From positions 992,001 through 1,056,000 of the forward strand of contig NZ_SDWJ01000001.1 in the NCBI RefSeq assembly GCF_009769755.1: DNA of 64,000 nucleotides, read 5' to 3'. The translations under genes were made by a program, and so were the position numbers. This DNA is from Sphingorhabdus profundilacus (GTDB taxonomy: Bacteria; Pseudomonadota; Alphaproteobacteria; Sphingomonadales; Sphingomonadaceae). Below are positions 42,657 through 62,981 of the stretch, piece by piece. Numbering within the stretch: the first letter of the stretch is position 1; every line of letters starts with the position of its first letter. The notes under the pieces were generated by a model, which was not told the origin of the DNA, made no database searches, and saw only the letters and a list, made by a program, of their open reading frames with translations.

Positions 42657-42925
42657 CTAGGCCGTGAACTCATACATATTGTCGTCGAGGTTTGAGGCCA
42701 TTTTGCACAGGGCAAGGAAGGAAGCCGCAGGGATATAGATGTATCTCAAGGCTTTCTGACGCAGCCATGGGCAAAATGGGTCAAATCCTTCGGACGTCAA
42801 AATGGCGAAGATATCGGGCCAAAATGCGCGCCGTCAGGCAGTTACTCTGCCTGCAAGCGTATTTTGGTTCGAGATCAAAGCCATTTTGACGCCTCGACGA
42901 CGATATCTATGAGTTCACGGCCTAG
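42657..42925. repeat. Two-arm palindromic element, copy E1
   Basis: 269 bp between trpC and leuA. Outer inverted repeats of 34 bp (42657-42690 and 42892-42925) begin CTAGG, end CGAGG and differ at two of 34 positions. Inside, arm A (42691-42794) is followed by arm B (42795-42891). B is bounded by CGTCAAAATGGC and GCCATTTTGACG and holds a CAGGCAG-TTACT-CTGCCTG hairpin. Arms A and B are nearly identical to those of the copy at 62.7 kb, but there B is inverted relative to A. The right end supplies the leuA stop codon. Confidence 0.9.
42795..42891. repeat. Arm B of E1, bounded by 12-bp inverted repeats
   Basis: 97-bp module with perfect terminal inverted repeats CGTCAAAATGGC (42795-42806) and GCCATTTTGACG (42880-42891). 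A second internal pair (CCAAAATGCGC / GCGTATTTTGG) and a 7-bp central stem make it a long imperfect hairpin. It is the segment whose direction differs, relative to arm A, from the other copy. Confidence 0.85.
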
Positions 42926-44595
42926 TCCGCCCCATTTGCGGCACTTAATATTGCGCGAACACTAGCCGTCGCAACGTCACGGCTGATGCCCACGCCGAAC
43001 AGCACCGGTCCGTCACCTACCCGGCACTCAACATAGGCGGCGGCACGGGCATCGGTGCCGTGACCGATGGCATGTTCGCTATAGTCGATAATATCAAGCG
43101 GCCCGCCCAGTGCGCTTTCCAGCGCATTGGCAAGACTGGAAATAAGGCCATTACCCCGACCACTGACACTTTGCTCAACACCGTCGATGCGGATTTTGCC
43201 AGCGAAGATACGCTCGTCCTGTTGCTTCGGACTTTGGCTTTCCTGAAAATCAATGAGCCGGAACCGGCTGTCCCCCTTCAAATGGTATCGTTTCTCAAAT
43301 GATTCCCAGATATCGGTGCTGGTCAATTCGCTGCCCGTGCTGTCGGAAAGCTCCTGAACGGTGGACGAGAAATTGGCCTGCATCCGCTTGGGCAGTTTTA
43401 GACCATGGTCCTGTTCAAGAACCCATGCGACGCCGCCCTTGCCGCTTTGCGAATTGACGCGGATCACCGCTTCATAGCTTTGGCCAAGATCGGCAGGGTC
43501 GATGGGCAGATAGGGCACCTGCCACAACTCATCATTGCGCCGCGCCTGAGCGGCGAAGCCTTTCTTGATGGCGTCCTGATGCGAGCCTGAAAAGGCAGTG
43601 AAGACCAGTTCTCCAGCATAGGGATGGCGCGGATGGACTGGCAACTGGTTGCAATATTCGACGGTTTTTATGACTTCATCGATATCGGAGAAATCGAGGC
43701 CGGGGCTCAGCCCTTGGGTGTACATGTTGAGCGCGACAGTGACGAGGTCGACATTGCCCGTCCGCTCCCCATTGCCGAATAGACAGCCTTCGACCCGGTC
43801 GGCACCCGCCAGCAATCCCAGTTCCGTGGCAGCGACCCCGGTGCCCCGGTCATTATGCGTGTGCAGCGAGATAATAACGCTGTCACGGTTCGGAACGTTT
43901 CGGCCGAAATATTCGATCTGGTCGGCATAAATGTTCGGCATTGCCGCTTCGACGGTAGCCGGCAGGTTGAAAATGATGGGTTGATCAGGCGTTGGCTTCA
44001 ATATGTCCATCACCGCGCTGCACACCTCCAAACTAAAATCCAGTTCAGCAGTGGAGAAAGTTTCCGGGCTATATTCGAAATGCCAATCGGTATCGGGCTG
44101 TGCCGCTGCATTATCGCGCAGCAGCTTTGCTCCTTCAACCGCTATCTGTTTGATCTCAGGCATGGTCATGTTGAACACGATCTGTCGCCAGGCAGGCGAC
44201 ACCGCATTATAGAGGTGGACAATTGCCGCGCGTGCGCCGCGCAAGCTTTCAAAGCTGGTATCGATCAGGTCTTTGCGCGATTGGGTCAGCACCTGTACCA
44301 TGACGTCATCAGGGACACGGCCCGACTGGACGAGGCCGGAAATAAAATCAAATTCGGTCGCACCCGCGCTCGGGAATCCGACTTCGATTTCCTTGACGCC
44401 AACTTTTACCAGCAAATCGAAAAAGCGTTGCTTCTTTTCCGCGCCCATCGGATCGATCAGTGCCTGGTTACCGTCACGCAGGTCTGTCGACAGCCAGCGC
44501 GGTGCCTTTGTGATTGTGCGGCCAGGCCATTGCCTATCAGGCAAGTCCACCTGCGGAAAGGGACGGTATTTTCGGCTTGGGTCGGATAACATCAT
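42922..44595 (-). CDS. leuA: 2-isopropylmalate synthase (long form)
   Basis: First committed step of leucine synthesis. From ATG 44595 it has 557 residues, the longer LeuA form with a C-terminal leucine-binding domain. Motifs: [15 protein letters not shown] near the N-terminus, [11 protein letters not shown], and [12 protein letters not shown]. Its stop codon (TAG, 42922-42924) is part of the terminal CTAG of the repeat element. The upstream leader encodes a leucine-rich peptide. Confidence 0.94.
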
Positions 44596-44657
44596 GATTT
44601 GCAACTTCGCTAAGACACGCAAGTCTGCGTGCTGTGGGGTTTCTTGAGCTGGCTGTA

Positions 44658-44715
44658 AACCCTTAGGCGGGTTGTTCCGGGCAAGACCGGACTATCCACA
44701 CGCCTAAGGGCGTGT
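44658..44715 (-). promoter_or_regulatory. leuA leader: mutually exclusive hairpins
   Basis: Two local hairpins (44698-44715, seven pairs; 44658-44673, five pairs) compete with a perfect 10-bp pairing between 44701-44710 and 44660-44669 (CGCCTAAGGG with CCCTTAGGCG). This is the layout of an amino-acid attenuator, and it follows a leucine-rich leader peptide. No T-run is seen, so control may be of Rho-dependent termination or translation rather than classical. Confidence 0.6.
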
Positions 44716-44754
44716 AAGTCGTAGAAGAAGCAGGCAAGAAGCGGTCTTTGACAT
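44704..44754 (-). CDS. leuL: leu leader peptide
   Basis: 16-residue frame MSKTASCLLLLRLTRP ending TAG, with five leucine codons, four in a row (CTG CTT CTT CTA). It lies about 110 bases before leuA and its last codons enter the first leader hairpin, as expected for leucine attenuation. The ribosome binding site is weak. Confidence 0.75.
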   Translation of the reverse strand: MSKTASCLLLLRLTRP

Positions 44755-44837
44755 TATGTTGCGTCGATAGCCGTATTGCGTAACATTCGTCCAGACTTAA
44801 TTTCGTAAACCGCTTATTTCCTTGCTCGGCCCGGCTG

Positions 44838-46778
44838 TTAAATCTCGACCTGACTGCCGAGTTCGACCACACGGTTGCTGGGGAGCTTGAAAAACTCCAT
44901 CGCGTTAGCCGCGTTGCGAAGCATCCATGCGAAGACCTTTTCACGCCAGATCGCCATACCTGGAATTTTTGATGCGATCAGCGTCTGCCGCGACAGGAAG
45001 AAGCTGGTGTGCATCATCTCGAATTTTGGTCCGCACAGGTCAACCTTGTCCAACGTCGCGGGGACATCAGTTTCTTCAAGAAACCCAAAACGCAGTTTAA
45101 CGCGGAAGAATCCCTCTCCCAAATCTTTGCAAAACACCCGATCAGCCGGCGAAACGAAAGGCATGTCTTCAATCTGTACCGTCAGGATCAGGACACGTTC
45201 GTGCAGGATCTTGTTATGCTTGATATTGTGCAGCAATGCCGACGGCACACCGCTGGCGGACGAAGCCATGAAGATGGCTGTCCCGGGAACACGGGTTGCG
45301 CTGTTTGCGGCGGATTTGATGAATATCTCCATAGGCATTGTGCTCTCTGCCATCCGGTCACGCATTAACGCGCGGCCCCGCGACCATGTTGTGAGCAAGG
45401 TGAAGATCACAAGCCCGATCAAAAGCGGAACCCAACCACCCGAAGGCACTTTCAGCAGATTCGCGCTGAAATAGGCAAAGTCGACAATGAAAAAGAGCGC
45501 CAGTATCGGCAGCGCTTTCCACTTTGGCCATTTCCAGAGCGTGATAAGCACGACTGCGATCAGGCAAGTATCGATGAACATCGCGCCCGTCACCGCAATT
45601 CCGTATGCGGCGGCGAGGTTGGACGATGACTGGAAGAACAGCACAAGCAGCAGGACCATGACCGCCAATCCCCAGTTGATCGCCGGAATGTAGATTTGGC
45701 CTGCGGCCTTCTCGCTGGTGTGCTGGATACTGAGTCGCGGCATGAACCCCAGTTGGATAGCCTGCTGCGTCAGGGAGAACGCGCCGGAAATAACCGCCTG
45801 GCTCGCAATAATCGCCGCAAGAATGGTAAGTATGATGACCGGCGTACTGATCATGTCCGGTACCATCAGGAAGAAGGGGTCGCGGATCGCCTCTTGCGCT
45901 TCGGCCGGCGTCATCGTCAGAATCATCGCGCCCTGCCCCATATAGTTCAGCATCAGCGCAGGCAGAACGAAGAACAGCCAGCTAAACTTAATTGGTCGAC
46001 GCCCAAAATGCCCCATATCGGCATAGAGCGCTTCCGCCCCGGTGACCGCCAAAACGACCGTACCCATGGCCACAAAGGCAGTGAAGCCTTCTATATAAAA
46101 GAAATAAAGCGCGTTCAGCGGGTTGAGAACGTCGAGCACGATCAACGGCATTTTTGTCAAATGCAATATGCCGAGTCCAGCCAACACTGCAAAGTAAATC
46201 AGCATGATAGGGCCAAACCACTGGCCAACCTTGGCCGTACCGCGTGATTGAAAAGCAAACAGCGCAGCTATGATCGCGATAGAGATAGGTACAATCCACG
46301 GATCAAAACCTGAACTGACATATTTAAGACCTTCTGCGGCCGACAAGATCGACATGGCAGGGGTAATCATGGAATCGCCGTAAAACAGTGCAGTGGCAAA
46401 AACGCCCAGCATCACAATCGGAGCCGTCCATTTCGCGCCTGCCGTCTGCCGGTTGATCAGCGCGAGCAACGCAAGGCTGCCTCCTTCGCCTTTGTTATCG
46501 GCCTTCATGATGGTGAAGACATATTTGAACGTCACCACGATCATCATCGACCAGAATACAAGGCTCAATACGCCTTTGATATGCATGGGGTCGGGGTCTA
46601 TGGGGTGGTGGCCGGCAAATGTTTCGCGGAACGCATAAATGGGACTGGTTCCGATGTCGCCAAAGACGACACCTACCGTTCCGACACATAATGCAAGAAG
46701 CGACCCTTGCGGAGCGTGACCATGATGTTGGCCGTCGTCTGTCTGACCAAAATCATCTGCGGCTTGCGAAGCGACCAT
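44838..46778 (-). CDS. kup: Potassium uptake protein Kup
   Basis: Inner-membrane K+/H+ symporter. ATG 46778 has AGGGG upstream and gives 646 residues with about 12 membrane helices. The first helix carries [19 protein letters not shown], the signature of the family. The long cytoplasmic tail ends [10 protein letters not shown]. Upstream is an AT-rich 110-bp gap. Confidence 0.95.
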
Positions 46779-46907
46779 TTCATACCCCTGACACAAGGCC
46801 CGTTAACTCTTTGAATATTCATCGACGGGCGGCGGGCGATAGCACGGCCTTAATCCCTTAACAACCACGCAATATCGATCAATTCTTCAATATAATATAT
46901 CTATTTT

Positions 46908-47567
46908 TCAATTGGTTGCAGAATTAACTTCGGGGCGATTCATTGCTTGGGCCTGCAAGGCCTTCGCCGCTTGCAATTGCGACTCAAGCCTCGGCTTCCA
47001 CATTGCTCTAGGAGTTGCAAGCGACACGGCCTTTTCCCACAGCAAAATCGCCGAATTCAAATCTCCGTCGAACAGGCGCGACAGACCGGCAAAATAATAG
47101 GGCGCCGGATAATTGGGCCGAATTTCCCTTGCTTTGTCGAACGCCAGTTGCGCGGGCGGGGACATCTGCCCTTGGCTTGCCAGCATCAGTTGCAGACCCA
47201 ATGCCGACCAAAGATCGGGATCTTCCGGGTTCTGCCGCAAACCGGCCTGGATATAAGATGCCGAAAGCTGGTAATCCCCTTGCTTGGCAAAGGAATCCGC
47301 CGTCACCAGCCAGCGTTTTGCGCCGCCGAAACTCTGGTCCATATCCGCACGCATTTCGACCAACTGGACCGCGGCATCCTCTTTCCCGCCCAAGGATTTG
47401 GCAGGTGACGCAGGCACCGCGGGCCGCCCCTGCAAGGCATAGCCCGTCATCCCCAGCAAAATCGCTGCGGCCGCAATCTGCCATAATCCACCTTTAAACC
47501 GGCCGATGGCCAACAATGCGCCAAGGCTGAGGACCGCCAGCAGGCCAAGACTTACCCAACCACTCAT
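46908..47567 (-). CDS. ccmI: Cytochrome c maturation protein CcmI-like (TPR)
   Basis: 219 residues from ATG 47567, which follows GGAGG and overlaps the ccmH stop. Two N-terminal membrane helices are followed by TPR-like helices (GDYQLSASYIQAGLRQNPED, NYPAPYYFAGLSRLFDGD). CcmI holds apocytochrome c for the haem lyase. It is shorter than enterobacterial CcmI but typical for the last gene of the alphaproteobacterial operon. Confidence 0.85.
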   Translation of the reverse strand: MSGWVSLGLLAVLSLGALLAIGRFKGGLWQIAAAAILLGMTGYALQGRPAVPASPAKSLGGKEDAAVQLVEMRADMDQSFGGAKRWLVTADSFAKQGDYQLSASYIQAGLRQNPEDPDLWSALGLQLMLASQGQMSPPAQLAFDKAREIRPNYPAPYYFAGLSRLFDGDLNSAILLWEKAVSLATPRAMWKPRLESQLQAAKALQAQAMNRPEVNSATN

Positions 47568-47983
47568 GATTTCCTCCGGAACAGACCACGCGCCATAAAC
47601 AGGCCGAGTAACAGCAAAAGCAATGGGGCCGCCCACAGCAGCAATCCCGATCCCTTCATATCAGGTTCAAAGCTGACCCACTCACCATAGCGTTCGATCA
47701 TCCACTGGCGGATCGCATCGGGCTTCTTTCCATCCGCAATCTGCTGCCGAACTTCAGCACGCATCGTCGCCGCCATCGGCGCGTCGCTGTCGGCAATCGA
47801 TTGGCCCTGACACTGGATACAGCGTAGCGCGTGCATCACTTGGGTTGCCGCCTTTTCCTGCGCGGGATTGGTTAGTTGACGATTGGCGAGCTCAGGCGTG
47901 GGACCACTGCCCTGTGCCATTGATTCTTGCGGAACCGCTGCCAAAAGCAGAACGCTGGCGAGGAGTAACAACCGCCACATCAT
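47564..47983 (-). CDS. ccmH: Cytochrome c maturation protein CcmH
   Basis: 139-residue thiol oxidoreductase that reduces apocytochrome c. Signal peptide, then the active LRCIQCQGQSIADSDA motif, then a C-terminal membrane helix. Overlaps ccmG by four bases. Confidence 0.93.
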   Translation of the reverse strand: MMWRLLLLASVLLLAAVPQESMAQGSGPTPELANRQLTNPAQEKAATQVMHALRCIQCQGQSIADSDAPMAATMRAEVRQQIADGKKPDAIRQWMIERYGEWVSFEPDMKGSGLLLWAAPLLLLLLGLFMARGLFRRKS

Positions 47984-48510
47984 TGCGCTTCCCGCAGTTT
48001 TTCAAGCAACATAGGCACATGCTCGGCGCGAATGTCGCCGATATGCTGGTACAATATTGTTCCGTCCCCGCCGATCACATAAGTCTCCGGCACACCCGAC
48101 GAACCAAGTTTCAACTGGACCGCCATTTCATTGTCCGAACCGATCCGCCGGAACGGATTGCCGAACTCGGCAAGAAATGCGGCCACATCTTCAGGTTTGT
48201 CGCGAATGGCAATGGCGTCGATTTCCGCACCGGATTTCTTGAGCGCCTCGAGATAGGGAGCCTCCGCCTTGCAGGGGATGCACCAGCTGGCGAAAATATT
48301 CAGAAGTCGCGGTTTGCCATCCGCCAGATCACGGTTGGACAGCCCCGCCACCCCCACCGTCGCAGGCGGTAGCGCAAATTCAGGCAATTTGCGTCCGACC
48401 ATCGCGCTGTGAACCATATCGTCTTTCGGCACGACCAAACCGTAAATGGCAAGGCCGCCTATGAAGGCGACCACGGCCAAGGGCAGCCAGAGGAGCCAGG
48501 TCCGGTTCAT
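47980..48510 (-). CDS. ccmG: Thiol:disulfide interchange protein CcmG/DsbE
   Basis: Membrane-anchored thioredoxin-like protein, 176 residues from ATG 48510 (ATGA overlap with ccmF). Active site in FASWCIPCKAEAP, followed by GVPETYVIGGDG with the cis-proline. Keeps CcmH reduced. Confidence 0.93.
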   Translation of the reverse strand: MNRTWLLWLPLAVVAFIGGLAIYGLVVPKDDMVHSAMVGRKLPEFALPPATVGVAGLSNRDLADGKPRLLNIFASWCIPCKAEAPYLEALKKSGAEIDAIAIRDKPEDVAAFLAEFGNPFRRIGSDNEMAVQLKLGSSGVPETYVIGGDGTILYQHIGDIRAEHVPMLLEKLREAQ

Positions 48511-50435
48511 GCCTGCGCCCATTTATTGACAGCGGGCTTTTTCGGGCGGCGGAACATTCTTCCCAAAAGGGATATCGCGCCACCGAGCGCGACGAGTAAT
48601 CCGCCGAACCAGATAAAGGTCACAAAAGGCTTCCACCAAAGGCGGACCTGCCAGCGGCCATCGCCATTTTCATCAGGCTGGGCGATGACGGCATATAGCT
48701 GCCCGTTCCAGCGTGTCAGCAGCGCCGCTTCGCTGGTCTGTTGTTCCGGGCGGTAAAATTGACGCGATTGCGGACGAAGAATAAACTTCTTGTCGCCATT
48801 ACGGGCAATCAACTGCCCTTCAATCGCTACCCAATTGTCGCCCACGACAGGCCGGACATCATCCAGTTTGACCTGCCAATCGGCAACCTTGGCGCTTTCT
48901 CCAGGCGCGAGCGCGGTCAGGGTTTCACGGGAAAAGCCGGACTCGGCGGCCATACCAAACACGCTGACCGCAAGGCCGAAATGCGCGACTACCATACCAA
49001 AGACCGGCAATGGTGTCCGCAATAGCTTGCGACCTTTAAGCGGCACCCAAGCGGCGATGGCAAGGGCCAGCGACAAGGCCAATCCCAAAATCGGGAATAC
49101 GCCCACGCCGGGCACAAAGCGCCAAATGGCAACCCCTGTCCACAGGCTGATCGCGAAAAATCCGACAAGCCAATATTTATGCCGCTTCAATTCGTCCCGC
49201 CGCCAGCGCAGCATCGGTCCCAACAACAATGCGACCATTAAAAGCAATGCAATCGGCGCGGTAGCCTTGTTGAAATAGGGCGGGCCAACCGAAATCTTGT
49301 CGCCCATTGTCTCGGCCGCCAATGGGTAGAGTGTACCGATGAGGACGATAGCCAATATGACACTCAGGAAGATGTTATTGGCGACAATGCCGCCCTCGCG
49401 GCTGACGATCTGGAATGGCTCTCCCTGCTTTACGGTGCCGATGCGGGTGGCAAAGACCAGGAACGCCAGACTGGTGTACATCAGCATCAGTGCAAGAATG
49501 AAGGACCCACGCTCAGGATCGACCGCAAAGGCGTGTACGCTCGTCAAGATACCCGACCGGACAAGGAAAGTACCTGCCATCGACATGGCGAACGCTACCA
49601 ACGCCAGCATGATCGTCCACGCGCGCAATGCGTTGCGCGTGGCCAATACGCTGACCGAATGCAGCAGGGCTGTCGCGGCAAGCCACGGCATGAGTGAGGC
49701 ATTTTCAACCGGATCCCAGAACCACCAGCCACCCCAGCCCAGTTCATAATAGGCCCAATAGCTACCTGCGGTGATACCGACGGTCAGGAATATCCACGCG
49801 CCCAGCACCCACGGCCGCATGGCGCGGGCAAAGGCAGGTCCAACCTGCCCGGTCAGCATTGCGGCGACGGCAAAGGAGAATGCAACCGAAAGCCCGACAT
49901 AGCCAATGTAAAGCGTCGGCGGATGGAAGGCGAGGCCAATGTCCTGCAACAACGGGTTCAGACCTGCCCCCTCGACTGGCGCGGGAACCAGGCGCTCGAA
50001 CGGATTGGACGAGAAAAGCAGAAAGGCGAAAAAGCCGAGCGCCACAAAGGCCTGCACCGCCAAGGTTGCGTTCAACGTGCGCGTGTCGATCCGCTTTTCC
50101 AGCAACGCAATGGCCGCACCCGACAGCGACAATACCGACACCCACAGCAACATCGAGCCTTCATGATTGCCCCATGTTCCGGCCAGCTTGAAAATCAGTG
50201 GCTTGTCGATATGGCTGTTGCTCGCGACCAGCAACACCGACAAGTCGGTGACATAGAATAGCCACATCAGCGATGCGAACGAAACCACACACAATGCGCC
50301 CTGCACAAGTGCGGCGGGCTTGATGAGCGGCGTCAACTTCCCTTCCCCGCGCAACAGAGTCAAACCGCCAACCAGTTGCAGCAGCGCCATCGCCGCCGCC
50401 AGCCAGAGCGCGGCCAATCCGGTTTCGGCGATCAT
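48507..50435 (-). CDS. ccmF: Haem lyase CcmF
   Basis: 642-residue multispanning protein that attaches haem to apocytochrome c. The WWD motif is visible in GWGGWWFWDPVENASLMPW, and several histidines lie in the flanking loops. Overlaps ccmE by four bases. Confidence 0.95.
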   Translation of the reverse strand: MIAETGLAALWLAAAMALLQLVGGLTLLRGEGKLTPLIKPAALVQGALCVVSFASLMWLFYVTDLSVLLVASNSHIDKPLIFKLAGTWGNHEGSMLLWVSVLSLSGAAIALLEKRIDTRTLNATLAVQAFVALGFFAFLLFSSNPFERLVPAPVEGAGLNPLLQDIGLAFHPPTLYIGYVGLSVAFSFAVAAMLTGQVGPAFARAMRPWVLGAWIFLTVGITAGSYWAYYELGWGGWWFWDPVENASLMPWLAATALLHSVSVLATRNALRAWTIMLALVAFAMSMAGTFLVRSGILTSVHAFAVDPERGSFILALMLMYTSLAFLVFATRIGTVKQGEPFQIVSREGGIVANNIFLSVILAIVLIGTLYPLAAETMGDKISVGPPYFNKATAPIALLLMVALLLGPMLRWRRDELKRHKYWLVGFFAISLWTGVAIWRFVPGVGVFPILGLALSLALAIAAWVPLKGRKLLRTPLPVFGMVVAHFGLAVSVFGMAAESGFSRETLTALAPGESAKVADWQVKLDDVRPVVGDNWVAIEGQLIARNGDKKFILRPQSRQFYRPEQQTSEAALLTRWNGQLYAVIAQPDENGDGRWQVRLWWKPFVTFIWFGGLLVALGGAISLLGRMFRRPKKPAVNKWAQA

Positions 50436-50881
50436 TTCGAAAGGGTATCCTTGGTGTGCTCGGCGGTGTTCATATCGATATCAGCCAATTCCTTGGGCAC
50501 GTAGTTTTCGTCATGTTTGGCCAACAGGCTGTCAGCTACAAAAACGCCGTCAGGGCGAAGTCGGCCATCGGCCACCACGCCCGATCCCTCAACAAACAGA
50601 TCCGGCGTTATGCCGCGATAGGCGACCTTCTGCGTTGCGTCGCGATCCTGTACGATAAAGGTTATCGACACCCCGTCAGCGCCGCGCACGATCGATCCCT
50701 TTTGGACCATACCGCCCAGACGGACGGCTTTACCCGGCTCAATCTTCGCCTTGGCCATGGTGGCGGGGGTGTAAAAATAGGACGCCTCTTCCTTCAAGGC
50801 AGCAGCGGCGATAAAGCCCGCCCCGATTAAGGCGACGAAAGCCACAAGGGCCAGCACCAAACGCTGATGTTTGGGTTTCAT
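50432..50881 (-). CDS. ccmE: Periplasmic haem chaperone CcmE
   Basis: 149 residues from ATG 50881. One membrane helix then an OB fold; the haem-binding histidine is in LLAKHDENYVP. A 119-base gap containing an 80-bp palindrome separates it from ccmD. Confidence 0.94.
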   Translation of the reverse strand: MKPKHQRLVLALVAFVALIGAGFIAAAALKEEASYFYTPATMAKAKIEPGKAVRLGGMVQKGSIVRGADGVSITFIVQDRDATQKVAYRGITPDLFVEGSGVVADGRLRPDGVFVADSLLAKHDENYVPKELADIDMNTAEHTKDTLSK

Positions 50882-50897
50882 GCCAAACCACCACCTC

Positions 50898-50977
50898 CCG
50901 TTCGTGTCGAGCGTAGTCGAGACACCTTTACGGTGCGCCATGCGTATGGACCTCTCGACTTCGCTCGAGGCGAACGG
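50898..50977. repeat. 80-bp palindromic repeat, copy S1
   Basis: Ends CCGTTCGTGTCGAGCGT and CGAACGG are inverted repeats, with a variable centre. An equally long copy lies at 61243-61322. It interrupts the ccm operon between ccmD and ccmE. Similar GTCGAG-rich palindromes are common between genes in sphingomonads. Confidence 0.8.
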
Positions 50978-50999
50978 AATTTATATGGCGTTGCTGGTT

Positions 51000-51131
51000 T
51001 CATGGTTGCTGCCTCAAATCATCCGCCAAGGCCTCTGAACGGCGCATGGCAAGATAGCTCGACACGGTGAGCCACAGCATGCCGACACCCGTGACCGAAA
51101 AAGCGGCGATGATGAAAGGCAGATGGGGCAT
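51000..51131 (-). CDS. ccmD: Haem exporter protein CcmD
   Basis: 43-residue membrane peptide beginning MPHLPFIIAAFSVTGVG, with one helix and a charged tail (LAMRRSEALADDLRQQP). Its ATG overlaps the ccmC stop by one base. Position, size and the single helix fit CcmD, which stabilises the CcmABC complex and releases holo-CcmE. It is too short for routine calling. Confidence 0.85.
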   Translation of the reverse strand: MPHLPFIIAAFSVTGVGMLWLTVSSYLAMRRSEALADDLRQQP

Positions 51132-51847: not shown

Positions 51848-51897
51848 ATAATTCCCCGCCTCTAGCACCGCAAAAGCGTTACGCCAATGGATTCACA

Positions 51898-53040: not shown

Positions 53041-53118
53041 TGGGGCGATCGAGGGGTCTTGAACCCCCGACCTCTGGTACCACAAACCAGCGCTCTAACC
53101 AACTGAGCTACGATCGCC
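53041..53118 (-). tRNA. tRNA-His (GTG)
   Basis: Cloverleaf with anticodon GTG in a CTGGT / ACCAG stem and the T-arm GGGGGTTCAAGACCCCT. Eight bases precede TA-GCTC, so a genome-encoded G-1 pairs with C73, and CCA is encoded. It is followed by a short T-run. Confidence 0.95.
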
Positions 53119-53222: not shown

Positions 53223-53257
53223 TATAATTTGGTGTAGAGAACAATCCCCACCACCGC

Positions 53258-53580: not shown

Positions 53581-53604
53581 AAAAGCCCCGCCTCAGCGGA
53601 GTCT
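53581..53604 (-). terminator. Terminator after fabZ
   Basis: On the minus strand CTCCGC-TGAG-GCGGGG is followed by CTTTT, about 14 bases after the fabZ stop. It closes the envelope gene cluster. Confidence 0.6.
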
Positions 53605-53617
53605 CTTTTCTTTGCTG

Positions 53618-54079: not shown

Positions 54080-54084
54080 TTGGC

Positions 54085-54783
54085 TTAGCGGCCGTCGGGC
54101 TGCGCTGCTGTTGGCGCCTTTGCGGCAGCTGGCTGGCTAGCAGCTTGTGCGGCTTGTACCCGAGCAGCATTTTCAAACAGCTGCTGGATTTGCTGGAACA
54201 ATGCCGCGCCTTGACGCGAAGGACGCCAATCTGCTGGCGGTGTGGTTCCGACCGATGGAACCACCTTGTCAAGCTCAGCGGTAATGGCGCCTGTCACATC
54301 TACCGCATCCGGTGCCCAGACAAAAGCATCCGGCGCCAAAATGATGTTGATTTTCTTGGCGGTAATGACGGCCTGCTGTGCAGCTTCATATTTCAGGGCA
54401 ATCTGTTCAACCGAATAGAGTTGCGCCTTGATAATTGGATCCTGAAGCTGAGTGATTTCCTTTTGCTTAGCTTCGACTTGTGCAATCAAAGGATTTTTCG
54501 CCTTAATTGCAGCATCCAATTCTGCTTGCGTCAGTTCCTTGTCTTTATTTGTATCAAGCTGTACGTTGATATCATTGATTTCTTTGCGTTTTTGCTGAAT
54601 TTGCTGGGCATAAGTTGCATATTGCGTACCAATTGACTGATATGCTGCACCCAATGCCTTTGAACGAGCGATGGCAACAGATGTTTCTGCTGTTGCAATA
54701 CCTGCAACCTGAGCAGCGGCAGGAGCCGCCAGAATGGCTGAGGTCATAAGTGCAACCGCAAATGCGGAATGGCGAATTTTCAT
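54085..54783 (-). CDS. skp: OmpH/Skp-family periplasmic chaperone
   Basis: 232 residues with a signal peptide ending PAAAQ (about residue 25) and a long helical, charged middle typical of Skp arms. The alanine- and glutamine-rich C-terminus is longer than in E. coli. Delivers outer-membrane proteins to BamA, its upstream neighbour. Overlaps bamA by one base. Confidence 0.88.
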
Positions 54784-57443
54784 TAGAATTGAGTCCCTAC
54801 GTTGAATGTAAATAACTTGGTATCGTCGCCCGTCTGTTTGAGAAGTGCGCGGGCTATGTCGATCCTGAACGGACCAAATGGCGAGTTCCAGTTGACACCA
54901 AAGCCAACTGAAAGACGAGGTTTGAAGCTATCGCCAAAAAAGCGTTCTTCAAATTGCAACACGGGAGTACGCGCCGTTCCGTCGGCGTTGGTCGCAACAG
55001 TATCCTGCTGAAACACGCCATCAGTGACGACACCCGTGAAGAATAGGGGTGCATTAGGTACAGGAGCGGTCAATGCTGACCGCGCTTGAACGGACTGCAA
55101 TATCGGTCTGGTAACATCGAACACAGAGCCGACATCCACGAATACAGATGGACGCAGACCCAGTTCTTTTGCCCCGGTGCCTAAAGGAATCTGCAATTCG
55201 GCCCGACCCAGATAGTAAAAACGCCCGCCGATCGCATCATCTTGAATTTTGTTACGATCAAATATCGGAACATTAACAACAACACCGTTCTGCAGTTCCT
55301 GACTGAAGGTGAGGCGTTGCACCCTCGGACCTACTCCACGAATGTCAAATCCGCGCATTTGCGGTTCGCCGAGGTAGAAACGATCCGTTAGACGCACATC
55401 GTCTACGCCGGCAATATTGCGATTTTCAAGTGAGTGGATATATCCACCTTCCAAAGCGACCGAGAAGATGAAATTGCTGCCACCGATGCGCCAATATTTA
55501 TCAGCGTTAATACGCGTTTTTATATAACGCACGTCTCCGCCTAGACCTGCGAAATCCTGACTGATCCCAGCACTTTGACCCCGGGTCGGACGCACGCGAT
55601 TGTCGCGATCATCATAAAGCAAGGTATAACCCAGCGACGAAGTCAGCCGGTTCCCGATTGCGTCGCATAAAAACCTTCCGGCAAGAAGTGGGTCACAGCT
55701 GGCTGGCAATGGCCCCGCGCCATCCGGATCAGAGAAGAACGAATTACGATCAAGCGTGATATCGTCCTGGCTCAGGCCGTAGCGGGCTTGAAAATAAACA
55801 AATTCGTTGATCGGCACGCCAACGCGAATCTGCAAACCGGTCGTTGCTTGTTGAAATGTTGTGTTGCGTTGATTGTTGAAGAAATTGAAACTGTTCAGAT
55901 CGCGCCGAAAAATGTCCCCCGAAATAGCAATTGAGCGATCCAGCAAATAAGGCTCGGTAAACCCGATTTCAGCAGATTTCGAAAAGGAGGAATATGAAAT
56001 ATTTGTCCGAAGCTCTTGCCCCAAACCACGGAAGTTACGTTGTTTTATGGAACCTTGGAAAATGAAATTCTCAATCGAGGAGAAACCGGCGGAAAGGGAT
56101 AGTTCGCCTGTTGCCTTCTCTTCGACATTGGTGGTCAACACGATACGGTCTGGCGCGCTGCCCTGCGCTTGTTCTACAGCCAGTTCCTCCTGGAAATATC
56201 CAAGCGACTTGATCCGGTCTGCGGTCCGCTTAACCTGAATGCTGTTAAACGCATCGCCTTCGTTTAGTCGGAATTCGCGGCGGACCACCTTGTCCTGCGT
56301 TAGTGTGTTGCCGTTTATGTCGATCCGCTCCACGAACACACGTTGACTTTCGGCAACATCAAAAGTGATGCCCATGGTCAGTGTTTCTTTGTCGCGAATG
56401 AAGTTCGGATTTACGTCTGCAAATGCATAGCCGAACAGGCCGGCGGTTTCGGACAGCCCTTCGACGGTATCTTCGACCATCTTCGCGTTATACCAATCGC
56501 CTTTTTTCATTCGCAAAGTGGAAGTCAGGCGCTCCGAATCAAAGTCGCGGATCTGGCTTTCGACCTTCACATCACCGAACTTGTAGCGCTCGCCTTCTTC
56601 AACCACATAGGTGATGATGAAATCCTGCTTGTCCGGCGTCAATTCTGCGACCGCCGACACCACTCGGAAATCGGCATAGCCCTGCGTCAGGTAAAATTGC
56701 CGCAGCTTTTGTTGGTCAAATGCCAACCGATCAGGGTCATAGCTGGTCCCGGAGCTGAAAAATGTATAGAAACGTGCCTGTTTCGTAACCATTTCACCGC
56801 GCAATTGGTTGTCGCTGAATTTATCGTTACCGATAATGTTAATCTGCTGAACCTTGGACTTTGGCCCTTCGGTAATTTCAAATACGATATCGACGCGGTT
56901 CTGGTCCAGTTGCACCAATTTGGGTTCAATAGACGCAGCGAACCTGCCTTGACGTTTGTAAAGTTCAATTATCCGCGCGACATCGGCCCGGACTTTTGAC
57001 CGTGAATATATCTGTCGTGGCGCCAATTTAATTTCAGGCTCGATCTTGTCGTTTTTCAGGCGTTTATTGCCTTCCAGTATAATCCGGTTGACGACCGGAT
57101 TTTCACGCACTTCAACAACAACAGCGCCGGCATTATTACGAATGGAAACATCGGCAAATAATTCAGTCGCATAAAGCTCTTTTAGAGCCTGGTCCCCCGC
57201 AACCTGGCTCCAATTTTGTCCAACACGAAGGCGCATATAAGACCGAACGGTGTCAGGTTCGAGACGTTGTGTCCCGACAACTGTTATGGACTGAATCTGG
57301 TCCGCCTGCACAACAGGAGCAGGCTGGGTCGCCGATGGCGCGGCCTGTGCGAACGCAGGCGTCACAAGTGCCATCGTTCCAGTCGCCGCCAACGCGGTTG
57401 AACCCATCAAATATATGCCAAGTGCTTTGAAATTCATTGTCAT
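54783..57443 (-). CDS. bamA: Outer-membrane assembly factor BamA
   Basis: 886 residues: signal peptide (to about residue 32), five POTRA domains and a C-terminal beta-barrel ending in FNVGTQF. MRGFDIRG is the conserved loop 6 motif. Two ATGs six bases apart (57443, 57437) are possible starts. Inserts barrel proteins into the outer membrane. Confidence 0.95.
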   Translation of the reverse strand: MTMNFKALGIYLMGSTALAATGTMALVTPAFAQAAPSATQPAPVVQADQIQSITVVGTQRLEPDTVRSYMRLRVGQNWSQVAGDQALKELYATELFADVSIRNNAGAVVVEVRENPVVNRIILEGNKRLKNDKIEPEIKLAPRQIYSRSKVRADVARIIELYKRQGRFAASIEPKLVQLDQNRVDIVFEITEGPKSKVQQINIIGNDKFSDNQLRGEMVTKQARFYTFFSSGTSYDPDRLAFDQQKLRQFYLTQGYADFRVVSAVAELTPDKQDFIITYVVEEGERYKFGDVKVESQIRDFDSERLTSTLRMKKGDWYNAKMVEDTVEGLSETAGLFGYAFADVNPNFIRDKETLTMGITFDVAESQRVFVERIDINGNTLTQDKVVRREFRLNEGDAFNSIQVKRTADRIKSLGYFQEELAVEQAQGSAPDRIVLTTNVEEKATGELSLSAGFSSIENFIFQGSIKQRNFRGLGQELRTNISYSSFSKSAEIGFTEPYLLDRSIAISGDIFRRDLNSFNFFNNQRNTTFQQATTGLQIRVGVPINEFVYFQARYGLSQDDITLDRNSFFSDPDGAGPLPASCDPLLAGRFLCDAIGNRLTSSLGYTLLYDDRDNRVRPTRGQSAGISQDFAGLGGDVRYIKTRINADKYWRIGGSNFIFSVALEGGYIHSLENRNIAGVDDVRLTDRFYLGEPQMRGFDIRGVGPRVQRLTFSQELQNGVVVNVPIFDRNKIQDDAIGGRFYYLGRAELQIPLGTGAKELGLRPSVFVDVGSVFDVTRPILQSVQARSALTAPVPNAPLFFTGVVTDGVFQQDTVATNADGTARTPVLQFEERFFGDSFKPRLSVGFGVNWNSPFGPFRIDIARALLKQTGDDTKLFTFNVGTQF

Positions 57444-57545
57444 CCGATCTGATGCCCGGCCCCCACCGGTTATTGAGCCGATGGCCCGCTAGAGAAGTTG
57501 CGTCCCTGCCCCAAGCTGCGTCCGCAATCAAGTGTGCAGTGAACT

Positions 57546-58667
57546 CTATCCACCACCAAATAGGCCAAAGGAGGCAAGATCATTAAAGGTCACCATTATC
57601 ATGAAGCCTACCAACATCGCAAATCCAGCCCGAAATGCCCATTCTTGCACCAGCGGTGTCGCCGGTCGCTTGCGGACCGCCTCAATCGCATAGAGCAGCA
57701 AATGACCGCCATCCAGCATGGGAATTGGCAGGAGGTTGATGAACCCCAAGTTAATCGAGATCAGCGCCGCAAGGCTTATAAAGGTCAAAATGCCCATGCT
57801 CATCGCTTCGCCGGAGACCTTCGCGATTTTCAGCGGACCACCCAATTCGGTAAGCGGACGTCGACCGGAAATAATCTGCCCCAAACCGATCATTTGTTGC
57901 CTCAGGACATTTCCGGTTTGCACTATTGCTGCCCAAGGCGCCTCGATGATACCAACCTTACGGACTTCTATCCCGGTAGCGCCAACGCCAATACGACCGA
58001 CACGGTATTTATTCCCGAAACGGTCAGTTTCTTCAGCAACTGCGACGCGCGCGTTCTTCACTATAATCCGGTCGCCGCGCTTGATTTCAATCTTCGCCGT
58101 TTCGCCGGGAATCATAATGATCTCATTCGCCATTTCATCGAATGTTTCGATCGCGCGACCATTGAACGAGATGATTTGGTCTCCCGGTATCAAACCGGCA
58201 ACGGCGGCAGGGCTGTTGGGTTGCACGATGTCGATAACCGGCGGCGTCACGGATTTTCCAAATGCCAGCAGAAAACCCATGGCGATAAGGATGGCGAGAA
58301 TGAAATTAACCGCAGGCCCCGCAAAAACAATCAAAGCGCGCTGCCACAATGGCTTGGATTGGAATGTCTGGTTTCGCTCCACCTCCGGTAAGGATTTCCA
58401 GCTTTCATCAGCTTGACTGGACGGGTTCATATCGCCCGCAAACTGCACATATCCACCCAAGGGTAGCACGCCAACGCGCCATAATGTGCCACGCTTATCA
58501 GTCCGGCCATAGATTTGGGGACCAAAACCAATCGAAAATTTCTCGGCTTTTACCCCAAACCAGCGACCGACGAAATAGTGGCCTAGCTCATGGACCACAA
58601 CAAGGGTCCCGATCAACGTCAAAAACGCAAGCAGGGTGATGATGATATTGGGCGATTCAACTGCCAT
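57546..58667 (-). CDS. rseP: Site-2 protease RseP
   Basis: Intramembrane zinc metalloprotease. ATG 58667 gives 373 residues with HELGH (27-31 region), one PDZ domain (VQPNSPAAVAGLIPGDQI) and the C-terminal LLPIPMLDGG motif. Overlaps dxr by 11 bases. Confidence 0.93.
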   Translation of the reverse strand: MAVESPNIIITLLAFLTLIGTLVVVHELGHYFVGRWFGVKAEKFSIGFGPQIYGRTDKRGTLWRVGVLPLGGYVQFAGDMNPSSQADESWKSLPEVERNQTFQSKPLWQRALIVFAGPAVNFILAILIAMGFLLAFGKSVTPPVIDIVQPNSPAAVAGLIPGDQIISFNGRAIETFDEMANEIIMIPGETAKIEIKRGDRIIVKNARVAVAEETDRFGNKYRVGRIGVGATGIEVRKVGIIEAPWAAIVQTGNVLRQQMIGLGQIISGRRPLTELGGPLKIAKVSGEAMSMGILTFISLAALISINLGFINLLPIPMLDGGHLLLYAIEAVRKRPATPLVQEWAFRAGFAMLVGFMIMVTFNDLASFGLFGGG

Positions 58668-59820
58668 ATGCGACCTTTTCCATATATTCCAACGCGTACC
58701 GCCGTGCGTCTGCATCAATGCTGAACAAATCGTCCAAGGATAGAGGACTTTCGGGCACATACCCGTTCAATGTCATTTCCACCAGTGCGGCAATATCAAG
58801 AAAACCGATCGCACCTTTCAGAAACGCGGCAACCGCCACTTCGTTGGCAGCATTTAAAATTGCAGGTTTTGCGCCACCTTCACTGATCGCTGAGCGGGCA
58901 AGACGCAAGGACGGGAAGCGAATTACGTCAGGCTTTTCGAAACTTAATTGACCTATGCTGGCCAAATCAAGCGGCAAACAATTGGTTGCAAGACGTTCAG
59001 GCCACGCCAATGCGCTCGCAATTGGAATACGCATATCGGGTGAGCCGAGTTGGGCGAGCGTCGAACAATCACGATATTCAACCATCGAGTGGATGACTGA
59101 CTGCGGATGAACGAGAATATCCAACCGATCAAGACCGACGGGAAACAGATGATATGCTTCGATCAACTCTAAGCCTTTATTCATCATCGTTGCCGAATCA
59201 ACGCTGATTTTTGCGCCCATATCCCAATTGGGATGTGCAACGGCCTGTTTCGGCGTGACGCTGCCCATCTGGTCCAGGGTAAAATTCCGAAACGGACCGC
59301 CGCTTGCTGTAAGTGTGATCTTTCGGACCTGATCGATTTTTGCGCCATTCAGGCATTGGAATATCGCATTATGCTCGCTATCCACCGGCAATAATGTCGC
59401 GCCAGATCGTGCAACAGCGGCCATCATTATATCCCCTGCCGACACTAACGCTTCCTTGTTCGCCAATGCCACAGTCCTGCCCTGTTCAATCGCAGCCATA
59501 GTGGGAGGAAGTCCAGCGCAGCCTACAATGGAGGCCATCGTCCAATCAACATTGCGCTTTGCCGCCGCAACCAATGCCGCCGCGCCGGCAGCAGCTTCGA
59601 TCTGCGTGCCTGCCAGAGCGGCCCGTAATGTTGAATAAGCATTCTCTTGCGCAACAACCGCGATTTCGGCGTCAAATTCCCGCGCCAGTTCGGCGAGCTT
59701 TTCCGCATTGCCGTTGGCGGTCAAGGCCACAATCTTAAAAGCCGAACGATGCTGACGAACCAGATCGAGTGTCGAAAGACCAACTGACCCTGTCGCGCCG
59801 AAAATCGAAATACGCCGCAT
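58657..59820 (-). CDS. dxr: 1-deoxy-D-xylulose 5-phosphate reductoisomerase
   Basis: Second step of the non-mevalonate isoprenoid pathway, 387 residues from ATG 59820 (TGATG junction with cdsA). NADPH loop GATGSVG (8-14), metal and substrate motif VDSEHNAIFQCL. Complements ispE at 16-17 kb. Confidence 0.95.
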   Translation of the reverse strand: MRRISIFGATGSVGLSTLDLVRQHRSAFKIVALTANGNAEKLAELAREFDAEIAVVAQENAYSTLRAALAGTQIEAAAGAAALVAAAKRNVDWTMASIVGCAGLPPTMAAIEQGRTVALANKEALVSAGDIMMAAVARSGATLLPVDSEHNAIFQCLNGAKIDQVRKITLTASGGPFRNFTLDQMGSVTPKQAVAHPNWDMGAKISVDSATMMNKGLELIEAYHLFPVGLDRLDILVHPQSVIHSMVEYRDCSTLAQLGSPDMRIPIASALAWPERLATNCLPLDLASIGQLSFEKPDVIRFPSLRLARSAISEGGAKPAILNAANEVAVAAFLKGAIGFLDIAALVEMTLNGYVPESPLSLDDLFSIDADARRYALEYMEKVAYGS

Positions 59821-60512
59821 CACCACTGGCCCGTTATTTGCAGGAAAAGCACCAATAGTGCCGTGGCACATAATACCGCAACCAAACCGTCCGCCCGGTC
59901 GAACAATCCGCCGTGACCGGGTATAAGTGTCCCTGAATCCTTGACCCCTGCCCGCCGCTTCATCCAGCTTTCAAAAAAATCCCCAGCCTGTGCAACGATG
60001 GCCAGCCCTGCACCCAGCAGCGGTTGCCACAAGGCAAAGCCTTCTGTAAAATGGCCCTCAATCCCAAGAAACAGGGCAGCCATTGCCATACCGCCACATA
60101 GTCCAGACCATGTTTTCGACGGGCTGATGGCCGGAGCTATTTTTGGACCACCAAATGCCCGCCCGGCAAAATAAGCCCCGGTATCGGTCGCAATGACCAC
60201 CCCTATGATCCCTAACAATATATAGATCTCGGCAAATTCACGTAAAAAAACCAGAAATGCAGTGGCGACACCTATGTACACAAGGCCGGCGAATATCCAG
60301 ACCAGCTTTCCGATTATGCCAGATGATAATTTCAGGACCAATCTGGTCCATTCAAACAAAAGACCAACGGTAATGGCGGCCGTAAACAGGGCAAAGATCG
60401 GCCCACCCAGCCAGATGGCACCGGCAGCCACGAGCATCATCACAACGCCCGATGCCGTGCGTATACCAAGATCGGAACGAGGTTTGGCCAACGGCGCGCT
60501 GTTGTCGTTCAT
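59820..60512 (-). CDS. cdsA: Phosphatidate cytidylyltransferase
   Basis: Makes CDP-diacylglycerol. 230 residues with many membrane helices and the signature SPSKTWSGL and KDSGTLIPGHGGLFDRADGL. Overlaps uppS by four bases. Confidence 0.93.
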   Translation of the reverse strand: MNDNSAPLAKPRSDLGIRTASGVVMMLVAAGAIWLGGPIFALFTAAITVGLLFEWTRLVLKLSSGIIGKLVWIFAGLVYIGVATAFLVFLREFAEIYILLGIIGVVIATDTGAYFAGRAFGGPKIAPAISPSKTWSGLCGGMAMAALFLGIEGHFTEGFALWQPLLGAGLAIVAQAGDFFESWMKRRAGVKDSGTLIPGHGGLFDRADGLVAVLCATALLVLFLQITGQW

Positions 60513-61225
60513 CTGCCGCCAAAGCGCCTTTCACGTTCGGCAAATTCATGAAGCGCCCGCGCCAATTCCGCCTTATCGAAATCCGGCCAGAGTGTGTCGG
60601 TGAACCAGAATTCGGCATAAGCTGCCTGCCACAGCATAAAATTGGACAGCCTCTGTTCACCCGAAGTCCGGATTAAAAGATCCAGCGGCGGCATGTCGGC
60701 AGTATCGAGATTTGCCTCAATCGACTCCGCCGTTATCGCCCCCTGCGCTGCGGCTGCCCGTGCTGCACGAACCAGCTCATCCTGTGCGCCATAGTTTAGC
60801 GCAACGGCCAATGTGGTGCGGCTATTATGTGCCGTCCGGTCCAACGCTTCATCAAGCATTTCTACAATATCAGGCGCAAGTGCCTTATAATTCCCGATTA
60901 TTTTCAAACGGACGTCATTGGCAGTGAATTCGTCAATGTCGGATTTGATGAAACTCCGCATCAGCCCCATCAAATCGCTGATTTCGTCCTCGGGCCGTTT
61001 CCAGTTTTCACTGGAAAATGCGTATAGGCTCAACGCTTCGAGCCCGAGATCGCCTGCTGCGCGCACGATGTTGCGGACAGTCTCGACCCCCTTTTTATGC
61101 CCCATGGCACGCGGTAACAATCGCTTCTTTGCCCATCGGCCGTTACCATCCATGATGATCGCAACGTGGCGAGGCATCTGTCCGGTGCCTGATTCAATTC
61201 GGGTAGCAGGCTGAGCAGCAACCAT
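60509..61225 (-). CDS. uppS: Undecaprenyl diphosphate synthase
   Basis: Makes the C55 lipid carrier for cell-wall synthesis. ATG 61225 gives 238 residues; MDGNGRWAKKR holds catalytic Asp26. The longer frame runs into an 80-bp palindrome and is rejected. Confidence 0.94.
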   Translation of the reverse strand: MVAAQPATRIESGTGQMPRHVAIIMDGNGRWAKKRLLPRAMGHKKGVETVRNIVRAAGDLGLEALSLYAFSSENWKRPEDEISDLMGLMRSFIKSDIDEFTANDVRLKIIGNYKALAPDIVEMLDEALDRTAHNSRTTLAVALNYGAQDELVRAARAAAAQGAITAESIEANLDTADMPPLDLLIRTSGEQRLSNFMLWQAAYAEFWFTDTLWPDFDKAELARALHEFAERERRFGGR

Positions 61226-61242
61226 CACAAAATCACCAGGAC

Positions 61243-61322
61243 CCGTTCGTGTCGAGCGTCGTTGCGACACTGTGGGTACGCGCATGCCCTATAGGTGCCT
61301 CGACTGCGCTCGACACGAACGG
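61243..61322. repeat. 80-bp palindromic repeat, copy S2
   Basis: Same length and outer arms as the copy at 50898: CCGTTCGTGTCGAGCGT at the left, CGACACGAACGG at the right. The centre differs. Lies between uppS and frr. Confidence 0.8.
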
Positions 61323-61348
61323 ATTTGGGAAAGCGGTTTGCGCCAAAA

Positions 61349-61906
61349 TCACTGGCTCATGATTTCCTTTTCCTTATGCGCCGCCGCGTCATCGACAGCC
61401 TTAATCATCTCGTCGGTCATTTTCTGCACTTCGGTTTCAAGGCGCTTACGATCATCTTCGCTGATTTCTTTTTTATTTTCATCAGTTTTCAGCCCGTCAT
61501 TAGCATCACGGCGCACGTTCCGAATGGCGATTTTTGCTTTCTCCGCATATTGCCCGGCCAATTTTGCCAGCTCTTTGCGCCGCTCTTCGGTAAGGTCGGG
61601 AATAGGAAGGCGAAGCATCTGTCCATCGGTAATCGGGTTCAATCCCAAGCCTGCAGAACGAATCGCCTTTTCAACTGGCGTCACGTTGGATCTATCCCAT
61701 ACTTGCACCGACAACATACGCGGTTCCGGCGCGCTAACAGTGGCCACCTGATTCAACGGCATGTTGGAACCATAGACTTCGACCACAACCGGATCGAGCA
61801 AAGTCACATTGGCACGACCGGTGCGTAAACCGCTCAGATCGCTTTTGAACGAATCCACAGCGCCCTTCATGCGACGTTCGACATCAGCTTTGTCATATTG
61901 CGGCAT
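61349..61906 (-). CDS. frr: Ribosome recycling factor
   Basis: 185 residues, standard length. [17 protein letters not shown] near residue 24 and a C-terminal helix-rich part. Follows pyrH by three bases in the tsf-pyrH-frr order. Confidence 0.95.
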
Positions 61907-61909
61907 GAT

Positions 61910-62635
61910 TTAATTCCCTTCACTTTCAACCACAGTAAAGGTGCCGCTACCATCAAGCACCTTCAAAATATTGCCTTGTTCGCGGATCGAAAATACCACG
62001 ATAGGGATATCATTATCCCTGCAAAGCGCCACGGCACTGGCGTCCATTACCTTCAGATTGTCCGACAATACTCGATCATAGGACAATCGTTCATAGCGCG
62101 TTGCAGAGGCGACTTTCTTCGGGTCGGCGTCATAAACACCGTCTACCGAAGTTCCCTTGAACAAAGCATCGCACTTCATTTCAGCGGCACGCAGCGCAGC
62201 GCCGCTATCGGTGGTAAAATAGGGTGCGCCGACGCCTGCTGCAAAAATGACAATCCGGCCCTTTTCAAGATGGCGTTCGGCCCGTCGGCGAATGACGGGT
62301 TCGCACACCTTGTCCATTTCGATGGCCGACTGCACTCGCGTAGGTACTCCGAGCTGTTCGAGAGCATTCTGCATGGCGAGCGCATTCATGACGGTGGCGA
62401 GCATGCCCATATAATCGGCCTGCGCCCGGTCCATGCCCTTGGCTGCCCCGGCCATACCGCGGAAGATATTCCCCCCGCCAATGACGAGGCACAGTTGCAG
62501 GCCGGTATCTTTCGCGGCCTTCACTTCTTCAGCGACACGGGCAACGGTATCGGGGTCAATGCCGAATGATTGCTCCCCCATCAACACTTCGCCAGATAGT
62601 TTCAGCAGGATACGGCGATAGCCGGTTGTGCCCAT
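61910..62635 (-). CDS. pyrH: UMP kinase
   Basis: 241-residue amino-acid-kinase-fold enzyme. KLSGEVLMG at the N-terminus, [10 protein letters not shown] and [16 protein letters not shown] are the nucleotide-binding parts. The 378-base gap to tsf is mostly filled by a repeat element. Confidence 0.96.
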
Positions 62636-62713
62636 ATAATCCTCAATCCCCGATGCAATTATGGCGCACAGCTATAGGAGCCGCACGCCATATCGCCAAG
62701 TGCATAAACTGCA

Positions 62714-62981
62714 CTAGGGTCAGGACCTATTAAATACACTTGCGAGGCGTCAAAATGGCGAAGATATCGGAGCAAAATGCGCGCCGCCGATAGTCATTTT
62801 ATCGGCAAGCGTATTTTGGTTCGAGATCAAAGCCATTTTGACGTCCGAAGGATTTGACCCATTTTGCCCATGGTTGCGTCAGAAAGCCTTGAGATATATC
62901 TATATCCCTGCGGCTTCCTTCCTTGCCCTGTGCAAAATGGCCTCAAACCTCGCAAGTGTATTTAATAGGTCCTGACCCTAG
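62714..62981. repeat. Two-arm palindromic element, copy E2
   Basis: 268 bp between tsf and pyrH. Outer inverted repeats of 34 bp (62714-62747, 62948-62981) are perfect, start CTAGG and end CGAGG, but match those of E1 at only 16 of 34 bases. Arm B (62748-62843) comes first, in the same direction as in E1; arm A (62844-62947) follows in the opposite direction to E1 and matches it at 102 of 104 bases. The central hairpin is GCCGATA-GTCATTT-TATCGGC. The remaining 78 bases to pyrH hold nothing I recognise. Confidence 0.9.
62748..62843. repeat. Arm B of E2, bounded by 12-bp inverted repeats
   Basis: 96-bp module with CGTCAAAATGGC (62748-62759) and GCCATTTTGACG (62832-62843) at its ends. Same direction on the plus strand as the E1 module, while the neighbouring arm A is flipped. 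Apart from the central hairpin and two bases it is identical to E1's module. Confidence 0.85.

Follow-up and report, generated by a model that had tools for sequence, protein, structure and literature searches.

Rare inversion of an internal hairpin in putative IS5-family-type miniature elements of sphingomonads

BOX elements have a modular build, rhizobial mosaic elements consist of combinations of palindromic modules, and in the terminal hairpins of parvoviruses an outer palindrome encloses smaller hairpins that exist as flip and flop orientation variants. Bacterial interspersed mosaic elements (BIMEs) combine repetitive extragenic palindromes (REPs) in alternating orientation (PMC2817692), and a review that also covers pneumococcal BOX states that the Correia element can undergo inversion (PMC10969869). 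Template switching is described as having two products, homogenised arms and inverted spacers, and the inversions arise only where the arms exceed 9 bp (PMC8604942). The present analysis concerns a stretch of 64,000 nucleotides from Sphingorhabdus profundilacus (contig NZ_SDWJ01000001.1, positions 992,001 to 1,056,000; hereafter the window), in which a repeat occurs as two copies, E1 and E2, that differ in the direction of one internal module, B, relative to its neighbour, A.

E1 and E2 are copies of one protein-less, presumably mobile repeat family that is widespread in sphingomonads. A typical copy of approximately 268 bp consists of an arm of approximately 33 bp, hairpin A, a mini-hairpin (TCC-NNN-GGA), hairpin B and the reverse-complemented arm. 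The two copies measure 268-269 bp, and the longest open reading frame (ORF) within E1 reaches 65 aa and that within E2 45 aa, which indicates that neither has a transposase gene of its own. By sequence criteria, the family is a miniature inverted-repeat transposable element (MITE) of the IS5-family type that is presumably mobilised in trans. No paper naming or describing this repeat was found in the open-licence text of PubMed Central, as judged by titles and the beginnings of abstracts, and the family is apparently unnamed so far. The reading favoured here, with a probability of roughly two in three, is that E1 and E2 are IS5-family-type MITEs and that the flip is a rare by-product of their hairpin structure, generated via template switching, and not a regulated switch.

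Direct reading confirms the coordinates of E1 (42657-42925) and E2 (62714-62981) and the module orders given in a preliminary description of the window: on the forward strand, E1 runs arm, A, B, arm, and E2 runs arm, B, reverse A, arm. Module A is nearly identical in the two copies and lies in opposite directions, as that description held, although its figure of 102 matching bases in 104 gives way to 2 differences in 103 positions. Module B points in the same direction in both copies with 88% identity, as had also been noticed, and the core of E1 as a whole (positions 30-240) aligns to the opposite strand of E2 at 86%. The observation that one module is flipped relative to the other is likewise upheld, and the flipped module is B of E1: because the junctions of E1 keep A in place (TTTGAGG beside the arm and TCCTTCGGA beside B, both unchanged), it is B rather than A that has turned, and E2 shows the usual layout when read from the opposite strand. 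In both copies, B is bounded by perfect 12-bp inverted repeats (CGTCAAAATGGC / GCCATTTTGACG). That B is the turned module had escaped the preliminary description, as had the fact that the outer arms differ in sequence, E1 having TAGGCCGTGAACTC... and E2 TAGGGTCAGGACC...; the two arms of E2 are perfect inverted repeats (0/33 mismatches). The parts of the two copies are as follows.

E1, 42657..42925, plus strand: complete copy of the putative MITE with type-1 arms, B flipped relative to A
E1 left arm, 42658..42690, plus strand: terminal inverted repeat of type 1, TAGGCCGTGAACTC...GAGG
E1 hairpin A, 42691..42785, plus strand: TTTGAGG...GGTCAAA
E1 mini-hairpin between A and B, 42786..42794, plus strand: TCC-TTC-GGA
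E1 hairpin B, 42795..42891, minus strand: reversed compared with the family norm, perfect 12-bp inverted repeats at each end
E1 right arm, 42892..42924, plus strand: inverse of the left arm with 2/33 mismatches
E2, 62714..62981, minus strand: complete copy of the putative MITE with type-2 arms, normal A/B layout on the minus strand
E2 arm adjoining B, 62715..62747, minus strand: type 2, TAGGGTCAGGACC...GAGG
E2 hairpin B, 62748..62843, minus strand: normal orientation relative to A
E2 mini-hairpin, 62844..62852, minus strand: TCC-TTC-GGA
E2 hairpin A, 62853..62947, minus strand
E2 arm adjoining A, 62948..62980, minus strand: type 2

The directions of A and B were scored in 94 full copies against five reference copies; 91 share the same A/B direction, two have B reversed and one has A reversed. 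These copies were listed by hand, with both modules present, from 26 Sphingorhabdus genomes and five plasmid loci of other sphingomonads. The table leaves out single-module and partial copies (including L015, L019, L030, L048, L049, L051, L073 and L074, as well as L083-L086, L118, L120, L124 and L125), duplicate loci, one of two plasmids sharing the same S. yanoikuyae locus and several listed matches. A further scan of one-genome-per-species contigs, performed with an A/B-junction pattern that is indifferent to the direction of B, returned at least 114 stretches; with one match from the viral collection (L362), at least 115 junctions are available, 104 of them with full span, and 24 of these are already among the 94. 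Among the matches listed, the 80 further full-span junctions comprise 70 normal copies, none scored as flipped and 10 that are not scorable, namely eight in which A is normal and B is cut or collapsed, one in which B is normal and A unscorable, and L362, in which neither module can be scored and which is taken as a chance match. When both sets are pooled, 161/164 copies scored for both modules (among the matches listed) have one A/B direction. Because nearly all scored copies agree in this way, E2 represents the ordinary form and E1 the exception. The flip is genuine but rare and probably incidental. The switching two-arm element of the preliminary description is not borne out by these figures, and an invertible switch was dropped as the principal explanation on the copy counts. 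A single odd copy, which had been proposed as the mark of a one-off rearrangement, nearly but not exactly describes the tabulated directions, as two copies have B flipped, both in the genome of the window. In L257, L266, L313, L315 and L361, the element is shortened because only a small palindrome (TTCGATATCTTTGCC) is left of B.

The two B-reversed copies are E1 (L001) and L005 (G000:C1:1486654-1486921). The best match of E1's B is the reverse of the B of L003 (96/100), and the reverse of L002's B matches at 95/100; the best match of L005's B is the reverse of the B found in L011, L061 and L145 (92/99). The two flips appear to be independent because both the arms (type 1 versus type 2) and the B alleles differ. 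Because the sequences flanking B in both copies are as in normal copies, the exchange lay within the inverted repeat that forms the base of B, which makes the earlier suggestion that this 12-bp repeat would suit a crossover plausible. In the A-reversed copy, L117 (genome G057), most of A is reversed, and the exchange point falls within the repeat CCATATTG/CAATATGG that forms the base of A. Since the B flips are private and the A flip occurs at a different repeat, no dedicated invertase site is indicated.

In the genome of the window (2.9 Mb, 3 contigs), the E1 query yields 57 matches and the E2 query 51. Fourteen of the E1 matches, E1 included, cover at least positions 30-240, and the matches resolve into 14 two-module copies in addition to fragments. 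Matches to a genus-typical query are present in at least 31/45 Sphingorhabdus genomes, partial matches included; in this search at most 17 candidates were scored per genome, which undersamples rich genomes such as G052 and G058. Among the matches listed in the junction scan are also records of Sphingopyxis, Novosphingobium, Sphingobium and Sphingosinithalassobacter; an exact pattern taken from A found 0 matches in the genome contig collection, whereas the looser A/B-junction pattern did match. The family is carried on plasmids of Sphingopyxis, Sphingobium and Novosphingobium. At least four genera contain the core, which occurs with two types of ends, and both arm types accompany it in the Sphingopyxis and Novosphingobium records.

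Folding of the single-stranded DNA gives z-scores of -15.1 for E1 and -16.6 for E2, and 0/200 shuffles reach either value, which, together with the 57 matches to E1 in its own genome, indicates that the repeat is not a product of chance. The alignment of the 91 normal copies yields an outer stem, hairpin A, the mini-hairpin and hairpin B. In the outer group (34 pairs, including the flanking base and two pairs joining A), 2771/3072 cells are Watson-Crick pairs compared with 2203 expected from independent sides, and within columns 4-32, 25/29 pairs occur in two or more Watson-Crick types and 386/526 non-majority cells are still paired, all of which are counts that shared descent inflates. On one strand, G-U compared with A-C counts amount to 39/32 for the outer stem, 77/32 for A and 24/154 for B, after column 1 and the near-fixed columns 34:131, 51:115, 75:91, 175:199 and 176:198 had been dropped by hand. 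Because the lean is toward G-U in A and toward A-C in B and is even in the outer stem, no single RNA strand is favoured. Additionally, unusual arm bases are mirrored in the opposite arm in copies such as L007, L009 and L011.

The family has two main arm types, type 1 (E1, CTAGGCCGTGAACTCATA...) and type 2 (E2, CTAGGGTCAGGACCTATTAAAT...). Whether read from the A side or the B side, E2 begins with 22 bases (CTAGGGTCAGGACCTATTAAAT) that equal the left end of an IS5-family element (L191) carried by a plasmid of Sphingomonas paucimobilis. The two ORF pieces in this element correspond to Pfam PF13340/PF01609 (DUF4096, DDE_Tnp_1) and NCBIfam NF033580 (transpos_IS5_3), the first piece lying just under the NF033580 cut-off. 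Similar ends flank IS5 transposase genes that are annotated on plasmids of Afipia and Rhizobium, and an alike but unannotated stretch is seen by eye on a Sphingobium plasmid. Type-1-like ends border an element of approximately 1.1 kb in Novosphingobium PP1Y (L195), the ORF of which matches NF033580 (E=1e-52), and in genome G052 (L134, L135), identical-looking IS5-related copies with type-1-like ends abut precisely on the CTAG end of two type-2 copies (one end seen). A 286-aa ORF beside a 21-base type-1 match (L193) has no Pfam or NCBIfam match and is not used as evidence. The insertion sites are YTAR, and a target duplication is seen as Y-TA before and TA-R after the element in 13/14 copies of the genome of the window, L009 having T after; the ends are decayed in some copies elsewhere, such as L121 and L164. 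Six exact element motifs have 0 matches in 32 loci from 16 relatives around the two homologous sites, and the E2 site aligns with the nearest relatives without the insert (the flanks of most loci being read by eye), which provides the insertion polymorphism expected of an IS5-family MITE. In the genome of the window, neither PF13340 nor the first L191 ORF piece has a match, other transposase families not having been searched; this ORF piece has matches in 18/45 genomes of the genus. An origin of the core as an internal deletion of an insertion sequence was rejected, as by eye the insertion sequences in L191 and L195 share only their ends with the arms; the core is a conserved palindromic module that is not derived from the insertion sequences examined.

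Three further observations concern the ends. At L181 (G000:C2:1095994-1096045), two type-1 arms lie together without the core, with a short palindrome left. L019 (around G000:C1:126915-127070), a partial copy, has arms of different types, type 1 at one end and type 2 at the opposite end, and is possibly a step in a change of ends. A third end-like sequence, TAGGATGGGGACC, forms the arm of L013 and occurs as short solo units, some with base changes, beside L008, L013 and L015.

In the mechanism proposed here, IS5-family transposases would mobilise the element in trans, and the core would project from the outer stem as hairpin A, the mini-hairpin and hairpin B. When a palindrome that forms a cruciform in this way is replicated, template switching may occur between the inverted arms. 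A switch and return within one arm would render the arms identical, as in the mirrored changes and the symmetric B of L007 and L015, whereas a switch at a hairpin's base would leave the hairpin inverted (B in E1 and L005; A in L117). Slippage between short direct repeats could delete the palindrome and leave a 15-bp remnant.

Several points weigh against this mechanism. Template switching is deduced here, and RecA-type exchange between opposite-facing copies would give the same product. The published inversions involve 2-5 bases of short spacers in yeast (PMC8604942), compared with approximately 73 bp in the inner part of B. Both B flips reside in the genome of the window (2/14 copies versus 0/80 in the rest of the 94; Fisher P=0.02), a skew that may point to some local factor. 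The match between arms and insertion sequences is limited to the outer 19-22 bp or so and scattered bases, the flanks read by eye in relatives at the E1 site resemble the window on the leuA side only, which does not show a clean empty site, and the covariation carries the inflation by descent stated above. Homogenisation is also uneven: in hairpin B of most copies, TTCGATCTCG or a close variant faces CGATATCTTCGCC, and four mismatches near the base of B are kept in 84/91 normal copies, the remaining copies being six with one mismatch paired and L007 with all four paired. By eye, the base of B is symmetric in the partial copy L015, and in the full-size scan copies L321, L351 and L360, the first arm of B is shifted toward the other arm at one diagnostic base, which suggests mending rather than strict retention of the asymmetry in B. 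The same asymmetry would take on a different meaning if the core were a selfish module of DNA structure in its own right that has travelled through sphingomonad genera with two or more IS5 end types; B would then stay imperfect while homogenisation goes on repairing the outer arms, its asymmetry would be a selected strand or end mark and the B flips would be loss-of-polarity mutants, a proposal that is considered rather doubtful.

Homologous recombination or gene conversion, in which B of E1 would be replaced from an opposite-facing copy paired through the inverted repeats or the arms, is a possible but unlikely source of the flip. Copies are present on both strands, many show 83-95% similarity along their full length, and E1's B is nearly the reverse of that in L003 and L002; however, a repeat of 12 bp is short for RecA-type pairing, and the symmetric hairpins and mirrored arm changes suggest copying within the element in any case. 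A site-specific recombinase acting on the CGTCAAAATGGC inverted repeats to turn B around, in the manner of a phase-variation switch, could use the perfect repeats bounding B in E1 and E2 and would account for two flipped copies in one genome. Such an enzyme is nevertheless judged most improbable, as the predominance of one direction (161/164) shows that the two orientations are not both common, the A flip of L117 occurred at a different repeat, and the repeat at B itself changes with compensation across genera (CGAAATGGC in Sphingopyxis and CGGAATGGC in Novosphingobium). Given the private flips and the arm homogenisation, template switching would fit better than a site-specific invertase. The strong consensus fold with covariation, in addition to the retained asymmetric internal loop in B, would also be compatible with a structured RNA gene or regulator, that is, a multi-hairpin transcript kept by selection on the RNA. 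E1 and E2 have no Rfam match at the gathering score, though, two sub-threshold matches to microRNA models (E 0.011 and 0.42) are all that was found among four loci, and the G-U excess points to no one strand, which makes selection on an RNA very unlikely.

E1 is located between a trpC-like ORF (41835-42638) and a leuA-like ORF (42922-44622, minus strand), the stop codon TAG of which overlaps the insertion site (42922-42925), and E2 is located between a pyrH-like ORF (61910-62635, minus strand) and a tsf-like ORF (63014-63940, minus strand), all names being assigned by eye. A tRNA gene at 53044-53117 on the minus strand is the sole Rfam match in the window at the gathering score. Other copies at stop codons, besides E1 at the leuA-like ORF, are L005, L006, L007, L010 and L014. 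For frames of at least 60 codons, sites coincide with stop codons in 14/29 element-boundary readings, 20/36 remnant readings (at least two remnant sites being read twice via duplicate loci) and 117/491 control YTAR sites, the controls being YTAR sites in the own-copy and remnant loci.

The remnant candidates are 15-bp sequences, YTA-GGGTCAGGACC-TAR, present in 26/45 genomes of the genus, whereas the reversed control pattern has 0 matches. They are mostly solitary where inspected, with L166, L170 and L177-L180 as examples in the genome of the window, and L176 fits a 16-bp variant. These units may be deletion remnants because a slip from the CCTA within a type-2 arm (ACCTATT) to the terminal CCTA would leave them.

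If the template-switching reading is true, the family offers a natural, countable record of the effects of replication on long bacterial palindromes, in which homogenised arms, inverted hairpins and perhaps the remnants of deletions occur side by side. As a switch it matters little, since the flip seems to be incidental. More interesting are the core that outlives changes of its ends and the B asymmetry that mostly resists homogenisation; the unusual features are the asymmetry retained in B and a core that at least four genera have in common despite its two kinds of ends. That a non-coding core persists across genera while the transposon ends change invites one to ask what preserves it.

A comparison with described systems places the family closest in form to the IS5-mobilised MITEs, which are likewise short, lack a transposase gene and have IS5-type terminal inverted repeats with TA on both sides in YTAR; the difference is that the core here shares only ends with the insertion sequences examined and occurs in at least four genera with two end classes. 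The parvovirus ends are linear virus ends replicated by hairpin transfer, and no relationship to them is claimed. BIME/REP, BOX and rhizobial mosaic elements also combine palindromic modules, whereas in the present family the module direction is nearly fixed and the ends are of the IS5 type. A REP reading with the REP-associated tyrosine transposase (RAYT) was rejected because no Y1 transposase was found in the genome of the window (PF01797, 0 matches; 5/14 control genomes positive). The Correia repeat enclosed elements of Neisseria are small MITEs as well and offer a precedent for MITE inversion, but as the review words it (PMC10969869), the element inverts, whereas here an internal hairpin does, a distinction drawn by description only. 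Finally, quasi-palindrome correction and spacer inversion, as reported in PMC8604942, have in common with E1 and its relatives both arm homogenisation and inversion between inverted repeats; those events occurred in yeast genes with small spacer changes, whereas the events suggested here would involve a bacterial mobile element with a hairpin interior of approximately 73 bp.

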